From Hypomesus transpacificus (taxonomy: Eukaryota > Chordata > Actinopteri > Osmeriformes > Osmeridae), in contig NC_061061.1 of the NCBI RefSeq assembly GCF_021917145.1, forward strand, positions 4,349,390-4,413,389: a DNA stretch of 64,000 bases, read 5' to 3'. Positions 8,901-17,254 of the stretch are shown piece after piece. Both the position numbers and the translations under genes were made by a program. The notes beneath the pieces are model-generated. The model had not been told where the DNA came from. It made no database searches and worked only from the letters and a program-made list of their open reading frames with translations. The stretch's first letter is position 1. Each line of letters opens with the position of its first letter.

Positions 8901-9778
8901 GTGTTCAGCTGGTAAGTGTTGATATGTTGTTTTCCCTTCTGTGTACCCGTACAATATGTGTGTGTTTTTTAGACCACCATTATTGGCCCTAGACCCACAG
9001 AACCGTATACAGGGATCCAACACGACCCTCCCTATAACCCTGACCATCCCTCTATCTCTACTTCCAACCAACAACCTCAAGACGCAGATGTCTTGACTCA
9101 TCCAGTACGTCCAGCATCAATCTTGTTTCTCTTTTTTTTCTTTTCTTTACTTTACAATGATGTTCTACCATTTTTCTTCCTTTGTTTATTTGGTTGTGTC
9201 TTCCGACCTTCTTCTTTTTTTTCCCTTTTCTGCTTTCATTCTGCTTTTCATTTACACATCTGGTTAAATGTGTAAAACTTTTCCTTTCTATAAAATGTGT
9301 CTGTGTTTATTCCATAGTTCAATGTCGTTGCTGGTGATGAGCCTCCATCCTATAATGCTGCATCATATTTTCAGGTATGGGATTACCTTGACTTCCCACT
9401 TCCACACACAACCAGGGCCTTTTTTCTTCAGGGGCTAGCATCGGGACACACCACACACACATGATTGTTCTATCCTTATTGTTCAGGGGCTAGCATCGGA
9501 ACACATGCCTGTACACACACACCACACACATCACACACACCACACACATCACACACAACACACACACACCTGACTGTTCTGTCCTCTCTGTTCAGGGGAT
9601 AGACTCAGGAAGCGTGGCAGCTCCATCACTCTCAATGGGTTTCGACTGCCTCTCCTCTGACTCAGGGATCCAGTTTGAGTTTCCCAGGGGAGTAGGCTTC
9701 CCCTTGACCCCCCCACTGACCTCAGACCCACCCTCCTATGCAGATGTCTACACCTCGGATAAACTCAACTTTTCCTAG
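5943..9778 (+). CDS. Type I membrane protein with cysteine-poor Ig-like domains and a PPSY-containing tail
   Basis: Ten exons join in phase to about 476 codons: 5943-5985, 6069-6202, 6392-6533, 6736-6999, 7119-7272, 8329-8489, 8667-8827, 8973-9104, 9318-9374, 9596-9778; every junction is GT-AG. A signal peptide (MLPWILLSLFSICHA) is followed by three V-like domains, each ending in a DxGxY/F strand (DEGIYSVLF, DQGVYTFRG, DQGTFWVRD). Only the first has the B-strand cysteine (NVVCYGHD) and none has the F-strand cysteine. Domains 1 and 3 are each split over two exons. One transmembrane helix (LLFASVAVSVLVTCLA) runs into a CCCC cluster and a basic stop-transfer segment. The cytoplasmic tail holds DEPPSY and SDPPSY, which match the PPxY motif bound by WW domains. 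It resembles fish-specific Ig-superfamily receptors of unknown role. I do not recognise a named orthologue. Confidence 0.82.
7368..8108. mobile_element. Possible non-autonomous element inside intron 5 of the Ig-like gene
   Basis: The left end has GGGCGTGACAATGG and the right end, reverse-complemented, has GGGCGTAACCACGC, a short possible inverted terminus. G-rich 'attggggggga'-type words lie near each end. The interval explains why this intron (7273-8328) is much longer than the others. No coding sequence is visible. Boundaries are tentative. Confidence 0.35.
8104..8182. repeat. TA/TG-rich microsatellite
   Basis: Mixed GT, TA and TATG short repeats directly after the possible element in intron 5. 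No coding function. Confidence 0.85.
9425..9620 (+). repeat. Tandem duplicates of the exon-10 splice acceptor region
   Basis: The text 'ttcaggggctagcatcgg' occurs twice (near 9428 and 9483) before the real acceptor and exon start 'ttcaggggatagactcagg' at 9591. Each is preceded by similar pyrimidine-rich sequence ('gttctatcctt' or 'gttctgtcctc') and CA-rich spacer. These look like tandem partial copies of the intron 9/exon 10 boundary and could act as decoy acceptors. A similar doubled pattern exists in duplication copy 2. Confidence 0.6.
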
Positions 9779-10734
9779 TGTACATACACCACCCAGAATA
9801 TACACTACTTCGACCTAGTGTAAAAGGGATCGCTAATACCTCATTTTAATATCAAAAGTCTTCTTATTAGGAGTCTTCTCTCTCAATAGGTTTTATAATA
9901 TATGACAAATGTTCTATTAATAGCCTAGACAACATGAACATTTGGTGTGTTTCAGAGTTTTTAACAATCACTTAATCGTTTGTACACAATCGCTATTTAT
10001 AGAATGTTTTATGGGAATGTTTTATTATTCCACCATGTGTATCAGACCAACCACTACCAAGCTAACTAATGTGCCTGACTACCCAGCCATAATCCTACTC
10101 AGTGGATAAGAGAGTATATAGTATAATTATTCAATAGCTGGTCTAACATGAGTGCATTAACTTACTGACCATGAAAATAAGTGGCCTTTGAAGTGCCAGT
10201 ATAAGGCCAATATTTCTAACTTCTTTTATTGAATTCCTTGATTTGGAATGTAGTGGAATGTATTTTGTAATGTTTCAAAATGTGTGTGTGTGTCTGTATG
10301 TGTGTGTATATATATATGTGTGTGTGTGTATACGAGAGAGATTAACATATTAACAGTTCATTAGTTTTCAACATTAATGCCATTATTGGCATGTGCTGAA
10401 TATCATAGTTCTGTGGATAGGTGTTGGAGTAGAATCCTTGAAGGCATTATTACTTTACCGACATGTAACTGTCTACTGCCATACTATCATCATTTTCTTT
10501 AATGATTACTTGATAAATGGATTTTGGTTACAATAACCAGTTACAAATCCTGATGAATTGGGATGTTATCTATACTGTATGTTTTAAGAGTTTATTAAAC
10601 AATGTTTAAGTAGTTTTTTTTCAGTTGATCAAGTAGTGCTATAACAGTAACATGAAAACACTGGCAGACATACTGTAGACCCCTGATCATTGTTTTGAAA
10701 TCACTAATTTACTGTCAATATCAATCAACACTTA
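9779..10734 (+). other. 3' untranslated region and flank of the Ig-like gene
   Basis: This follows the stop codon and contains no coding exon. It includes 'gtttattaaacaatg' near 10590, which is not a perfect AATAAA but could mark the transcript end. It is duplicated at 15520-16440. A short TG/TA repeat at 10280-10340 ends in GAGAGAG, the counterpart of the huge GA repeat in copy 2. Confidence 0.55.
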
Positions 10735-16003: not shown

Positions 16004-16613
16004 GAAAGACAGAGACAGTTATTTACTGTTACTCAGAATTCATGCCATTATTAGCTCTTACCTCATATCACTAAGGATCTCTCAAAGTACGATGCAGAAA
16101 ATTACAGTTCTGTGGTTATGTGTTGGAGTATACCCTGAAGGCAGTATTACTTTACTGGCATGTAACTGTCTATTTTAATATATGCAGTATAAAGCCGTGG
16201 TTCATACTATCATCATACTACAACATACTATAATCATTTTATTTAATGATTACTTGCTAAATATGTTTATATATATATATTTTTTTTACAAGAGAGGATG
16301 AATTGGGATGTGCACTGTATGTTTTAAGAGTTTAATAAACAATGTTTAAGTGTTTTGGTTACAGTGCTATAACAGTAACATGCAAACACTGGCAGACATA
16401 GACCACTGAAAATAGTTTTTGAATCACTGGTTTACTGTCAATATTCAACAGAAGCAACAGTTACAGTATAGTGGATAGTTACATAGCAACATTCTTTCAC
16501 AAATATGCAGCTGCATGCAGTATATGAAATATGCATGATGTCCTTCATATGAGCGGGCAGTCTGTGGAATACACGGAGTTGAAATACATTGATTGCACAG
16601 TAACAGTCTGGCA

Positions 16614-17254
16614 TCACCAGAGGTCATAATATCTGTGGAAAAAAAGGTGAAACAATGTTAAAGTTTGGCTAGACACAATATGATGCTAATATGATCATAA
16701 TCCATCGACGTGCTATTATTAGTCGTTTTGTAGCACGATGCGTTTTTACGCTTATGTTAGGCCGCAAAATGGTCTGTAAAGATGTCTATTAAAATAATTG
16801 CCCCCACCTTCCAAATGATCGTGGGATGCTCTCTGTGCTCTCTGTCAGTAACATGTCTGAGAACACAGTATCCGGGCTGGATCTTTTACCATACCTAAAT
16901 ATTAAAGAAAAAAAATCTATTTACAGAAGCAACATGTTTTTTATTCTTACTTTAAAACATCTTGCCAAACAAAACACCAGTCTTCAATGTTCACGTTTTA
17001 ACGTTGCATTCTACAACAGCCTATGTGATACATACAGACTTTACAACAGCAGCTATTGTCGTGGAAACTCACCGCTGTCTCGTGATGAGGTTGATATAGT
17101 GTCTGAGTGCAGAGTAATACTTTGCAAGTTCCTCTGGGGGTGCGTCTTCACGGGGGCTCGCCGGCTTGGATGGATACGCGTCAATCATGGAGTGGACGCA
17201 AATCAGCGCGCAGAGAGCCAGCACACCAAGTGACATCGCTGCGTTTGACCGCAT
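16614..17254 (-). CDS. npy: Neuropeptide Y precursor
   Basis: Secreted peptide hormone and neurotransmitter acting at Y-type G-protein-coupled receptors. Exon 2 (17254-17073) starts exactly at the ATG after a TAG acceptor and encodes a signal peptide plus mature residues Y1 to R35. Exon 3 (16894-16808) supplies Y36, the GKR amidation and cleavage site and the C-flanking peptide beginning SSPDT. Exon 4 (16632-16614) ends in YYDLW. The exons sum to 288 bases, a 95-residue precursor, close to the usual 97. The intron between R35 and Y36 is the family hallmark. The mature peptide reads [20 protein letters not shown] and then the conserved amphipathic helix to RQRY. Residues 6-9 (ASPR in place of the usual DNPG) are unusual. 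stk31 next door supports npy rather than pyy. A teleost npy duplicate is also possible. Confidence 0.92.

Follow-up and report, generated by a model that had tools for sequence, protein, structure and literature searches.

In the 64,000-nucleotide stretch of the Hypomesus transpacificus genome analysed here (the window, C2:4349390-4413389), the facing 3' ends of two convergent genes, a plus-strand gene encoding an Ig-like transmembrane protein and a minus-strand neuropeptide Y (NPY) gene, are present twice. This arrangement is very probably the result of an old partial tandem duplication whose ends lay inside the two genes and which was followed by decay and by the insertion of repeats. The two copies are situated at a single locus, in direct orientation and with identical internal order, and are separated by a gap of 2.1 kb; each of them contains the last two Ig-like exons, the 3' flank, NPY exon 4 and most of NPY intron 3 (Table 1). 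The left limits of both copies are found within Ig intron 8 and the right limits within NPY intron 3, approximately 15 nt before the exon 3 donor. The order, orientation and spacing of the copies point to a tandem event.

Table 1. Features of the duplicated locus, in positions of the window and ordered from left to right.
Feature	Position	Strand	Basis
Ig-like transmembrane protein gene, 10 coding exons, 476 aa	5943-9778	+	open spliced frame
Copy 1 of the segment (Ig intron 8 to NPY intron 3)	~9207-12732		alignment; interrupted by Tc1
Ig exon 9, copy 1, donor intact	9318-9374	+	gene model
Ig exon 10 with stop, copy 1	9596-9778	+	gene model
Overlapping poly(A) hexamers, copy 1	ATTAAA 10594-10599; AATAAA 10591-10596	+; -	consensus match only
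Tc1 transposon in copy 1, 1661 bp, open transposase frame	10735-12395	-	copy comparison, Pfam
Decayed NPY exon 4, copy 1 (HDDLS vs YYDLW)	12553-12535	-	alignment
Inter-copy space, mainly dispersed repeats	12733-14860	.	genome matches
Repeat	12840-13021		at least 43 matches, self included
548-bp dispersed repeat	13209-13756		at least 38 other matches at 96-98%
Older repeat	13833-14262		at least 47 matches, 69-88% excluding self
Repeat	14265-14531		genome matches
LINE-like fragment, right end a few bases before copy 2	14517-14857	-	at least 42 matches
Copy 2 of the segment	~14861-16792		alignment
Degraded Ig exon 9 of copy 2 (AT at the donor; in-frame excess of 24 nt)	14958-15038	+	alignment
Ig exon 10 remnant, copy 2 (net 70-nt loss, stop to TCG)	15378-15482	+	blastn blocks, alignment
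Overlapping poly(A) hexamers, copy 2: AATAAA (+), ATTAAA (-)	16331-16339	+; -	consensus match only
NPY exon 4, copy 2 (YYDLW, stop TGA)	16632-16614	-	spliced model
NPY exon 3, outside the duplicate	16894-16808	-	spliced model
NPY exon 2 (signal peptide and mature peptide)	17254-17073	-	spliced model

An earlier reading of the locus, made from the sequence only, had described direct copies with ordered landmarks at 9205-12722 and 14862-16788. The blastn comparison of 8900-13000 with 14300-17500 agrees with this description, as nine matches were obtained, all of them plus/plus and collinear, which span from 9217/14866 to 12732/16792; the two smallest overlap their neighbours and correspond to a short repeat within Ig intron 9. 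Alignment of the copies, proposed in that reading as a check, revealed a similarity that extends well past short repeats. The concatenated matching blocks reached a local alignment score of 1076.5, and none of 100 first-order Markov resamples of copy 2 scored above 35.5, which rules out a chance similarity of the copies. Identity between the copies amounts to 85.9% across 956 aligned sites regarded as noncoding, and the differences comprise 65 transitions and 70 transversions (K80 0.157). These 956 sites include 12 columns of NPY exon 4, whose limits in copy 1 were set to 12542-12560, the exon itself being located at 12535-12553. If substitutions are assumed to accumulate at 2.5-4e-9 per site and year, the K of 0.157 would correspond to an age of roughly 20-30 million years for the duplication. 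Across the other 944 sites, the divergence is distributed unevenly over three parts of the segment (chi-square p = 0.014), with 41/374 (11.0%) on the Ig side, 40/296 (13.5%) in the middle and 52/274 (19.0%) on the NPY side. Such unevenness would not be expected from one event followed by uniform drift and thus speaks against the simple tandem picture; constraint, conversion or alignment may be its sources.

The genome searched comprised 437,198,280 bases in 376 contigs. Among the 40 of 281 candidates scored with the Ig-side query, no other gene-like place was identified in the assembly, and the remaining listed matches all fell within a CA-rich stretch of intron 9; a third gene-like copy of the Ig-side segment was rejected on the basis of this search. 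An origin of the duplicate as a retrocopy of a transcript was also rejected, given that Ig introns 8 and 9 and NPY intron 3 were copied and that exons of both strands are included.

The Ig-like gene carries GT/AG at all nine introns, and its product, as read by eye, begins with a sequence resembling a signal peptide and has a hydrophobic stretch ahead of a cysteine-rich tail that contains PPSY. The whole protein matches the Pfam V-set family with an E value of 1.2e-06, with no individual stretch above the threshold, and its best E value against PDB was only 0.44. NPY exons 2-4 are spliced to a precursor of 95 aa; the noncoding first exon of this gene was not located. The precursor matches PF00159 (E 1.6e-14), its closest PDB matches are neuropeptide Y structures, and it contains a 36-residue peptide that ends in ITRQRY and is followed by G-K-R. 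The same assembly harbours, on C4, a more canonical, npya-like NPY gene and, on C13, a gene resembling PYY. Due to the presence of this npya-like gene elsewhere in the assembly, the NPY gene of the window is probably npyb. Near the npya-like and PYY-like loci (9.9 kb each), a tblastn search for an Ig-like gene returned chance-level matches only. The two NPY genes of the assembly resemble the npya/npyb pair described for teleosts (PMC8427667); the accessible part of that paper contains nothing on a neighbour gene of npyb or on a duplicated 3' end, and the word 'synteny' is absent from its text.

According to the explanation that we favour, a segment of approximately 1.9 kb, reaching from Ig intron 8 to NPY intron 3, would have been duplicated head to tail, resulting in the order Ig exons 1-8, (9, 10, npy 4), (9, 10, npy 4), npy exons 3-1. 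With each gene read from its own promoter, the first full 3' end to be reached would be that of copy 1 for the Ig-like gene and that of copy 2 for npy, and the ends met second would be spare and free to decay, presumably in a neutral manner. Because convergent genes each meet a complete 3' end first, both genes would have survived and no fusion would have arisen. Repeats would have been added later, namely those of the spacer, a Tc1 transposon in copy 1 and, in copy 2, both a GA microsatellite and an element of the UnaL2 type. The tandem duplication that had been claimed from the sequence is supported by the direct copies in the predicted order, by the intact 5' gene parts outside the pair, by a spacer without Ig exons 1-8 and NPY exons 2-3, and by a decay that affected only the ends met second. 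The landmarks of that claim hold as well; it had missed the Tc1 transposon in copy 1, the mostly repetitive spacer of 2.1 kb and the uneven divergence.

Two properties of the spacer argue against a simple tandem picture. The copies are separated and the original junction is unreadable, because the spacer consists mostly of repeats, and a LINE-like fragment ends only a few bases from the boundary of copy 2, so that the repeat may have taken part in making the junction. By interval count, 1753 of the 2129 bases between the copies (82%) are multi-copy repeat, and this number increases to 2022 of 2129 (95%) when those portions of 12828-13826 that match just one other place, on C9, are counted as well. 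Outside the window, nothing matches the 95 bases at 12733-12827. The 548-bp repeat has been active recently, given the number and the high identity of its other matches (Table 1). The single place on C9 matches this repeat together with parts of its flanks at 86% despite the high copy number of the repeat, and would represent either a composite element or an old segmental copy.

The position of the LINE-like fragment raises the question of a repeat-linked copying, either by LINE-associated template switching or by a break in a pre-existing LINE, that would have generated an interspersed copy. This is consistent with the fragment ending at 14857, just before copy 2, and with the finding that each of the 13 other family members set against L021 extends past this end (14 of the 41 other listed matches were retrieved). 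However, two peptides from other loci of the LINE family gave a match to RVT_1 (reverse transcriptase) that corresponds to the minus strand in the window, which makes the right end of the fragment its 5' end. LINE copies are commonly truncated at the 5' end, and the fragment, read as a minus-strand insertion, would have been shortened by ordinary truncation, so that a plain insertion suffices. In addition, the self-comparison revealed no matching fragment at the outer limits of the copies, and we therefore consider repeat-linked copying unlikely.

A little less likely still is a larger duplication that comprised a whole gene, Ig-like or npy, whose extra exons were later deleted, with the limits seen today being the limits of deletions. 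A spacer of about 2.1 kb with repeat turnover leaves room for such a loss, and 95 bp in it are unmatched. In contrast, the missing exons and introns have left no significant trace in the spacer, even though UTR and intron parts of the copies still align at 80% or more: the best E values were 0.08 for Ig exons 1-8 and 0.28 for NPY exons 2-3. Moreover, this scenario needs both outer limits to be deletion ends located within introns.

A partial tandem duplication is also in line with the insertions that are specific to one copy and that, since they differ between the copies, most simply postdate the duplication. The Tc1 transposon of copy 1 is flanked by TA on both sides, and copy 2 exhibits the corresponding empty site with one base different. 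It possesses inverted ends of 230 nt with 94% identity and a stop-to-stop transposase frame of 358 codons that carries Tc3-type HTH and DDE_3 domains, and it is possibly young. A second, decayed Tc1-like stretch is located at 2860-4140, of which 3176-3300 matches 11172-11297 at 71%. The insertion in copy 2 at approximately 15073-15266, matched again at 54494-54686 in the self-comparison, bears the Rfam UnaL2 LINE 3' element (15083-15136), and a long GA repeat extends over approximately 15770-16002 of the same copy.

Each copy contains a pair of poly(A) hexamers that overlap each other, one on either strand, and whose forms are swapped between the copies, with ATTAAA/AATAAA in copy 1 and AATAAA/ATTAAA in copy 2. 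ATTAAA at 10594-10599 is the sole plus-strand AATAAA or ATTAAA from the Ig stop to the Tc1 transposon in copy 1, and an additional minus-strand AATAAA is present in copy 2 at 16238-16243. Bidirectional or overlapping poly(A) regions occur at convergent genes, and the overlap of ATTAAA and AATAAA in each copy, a matter of consensus matches only, resembles such regions. Before the duplication, the 3' ends of the Ig-like gene and npy may have been only tens of bases apart. That the duplication split two overlapping convergent transcripts into private 3' ends, and was kept for that reason, is in our view improbable. Should a shared poly(A) region prove to exist in a relative with a single copy, the locus would provide a natural test of overlapping convergent genes gaining separate ends.

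Decay of the unused ends was confirmed by the alignment as the sequence-only reading had named it. The donor of Ig exon 9 reads GT in copy 1 and AT in copy 2, the Ig stop TAG reads TCG in copy 2, where the frame continues to a later stop, and the terminal TGG (Trp) of NPY is changed to TCG in copy 1. Missing from that account were the net loss of 70 nt in exon 10, with 82 nt between the blastn blocks in copy 1 versus 12 in copy 2, and the 24-nt difference in Ig exon 9, which comprises 27 codons in copy 2 versus 19 in copy 1, the copy 2 frame being open. In the NPY acceptor of copy 1, additional bases separate the pyrimidine tract from the AG. The pairing of the exon 10 acceptor of copy 2 differs between the global alignment and blastn, because the acceptor motif recurs within intron 9, and the loss of this acceptor was not counted as decay. 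Three repeats of the acceptor-like motif GTTCAGGGGCTAGC are found in Ig intron 9 as far as the exon 10 acceptor (9416-9615). Terminal Trp is likely the older state of NPY, since the single candidate end obtained by pattern search at the npya-like locus, RYNDPSNW, also terminates in W. The proposal that each gene retains one good end is in agreement with the gene models, as the complete Ig model ends in copy 1 and the NPY model in copy 2. Judged from position and decay, the Ig-like gene appears to use the copy 1 end and npy the copy 2 end.

The second 3' ends might alternatively serve as functional alternative ends, for instance if copy 2 supplied alternative terminal exons to the Ig-like gene. 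In that copy, exon 9 is open and differs by 24 nt in frame, and the 3' part of exon 10 is open in frame 0 beyond the lost stop. Nevertheless, the AT at the exon 9 donor, the net loss of 70 nt from exon 10 and a frame that reads through TCG render such a function very unlikely. The open and longer exon 9 of copy 2 could hint at a past period of use. An assembly artefact that placed two haplotypes of one segment in series is hardly credible, given the 14% divergence, the copy-specific insertions and the presence of the 5' part of each gene only once on the outer side; the near-identity expected of a haplotype duplication contrasts with the observed identity of 85.9%.

It is well established that tandem duplications can be partial and have their ends inside genes, and the locus described here adds a new case to this class. 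A search of the literature outside the subscription journals revealed no description of this duplication in a convergent gene pair. A survey of Drosophila yakuba reported that partial tandem duplications yield chimeras and gene fragments (PMC5460883), and the short tandem copy with ends inside genes resembles the duplications described there. In contrast to that survey, which in its accessible part stresses chimeras and new expression and does not set convergent pairs apart as a category of their own (PMC5460883), the layout found here is convergent, no fusion was formed and both genes are whole. The locus illustrates the rule that a tandem duplication ending in two convergent genes breaks neither of them and can persist. 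Decay of the spare ends allows such duplications to be dated, and spare exons may be at risk of being annotated as extra exons or as a second gene.

Elsewhere in the window, six of ten further frames subjected to Pfam were without any family. A minus-strand frame at 49642-51024 with a CAP-Gly domain (Pfam) is part of a larger gene, and a tandem repeat at 52348-53239 is located within a minus-strand open frame of 361 codons.
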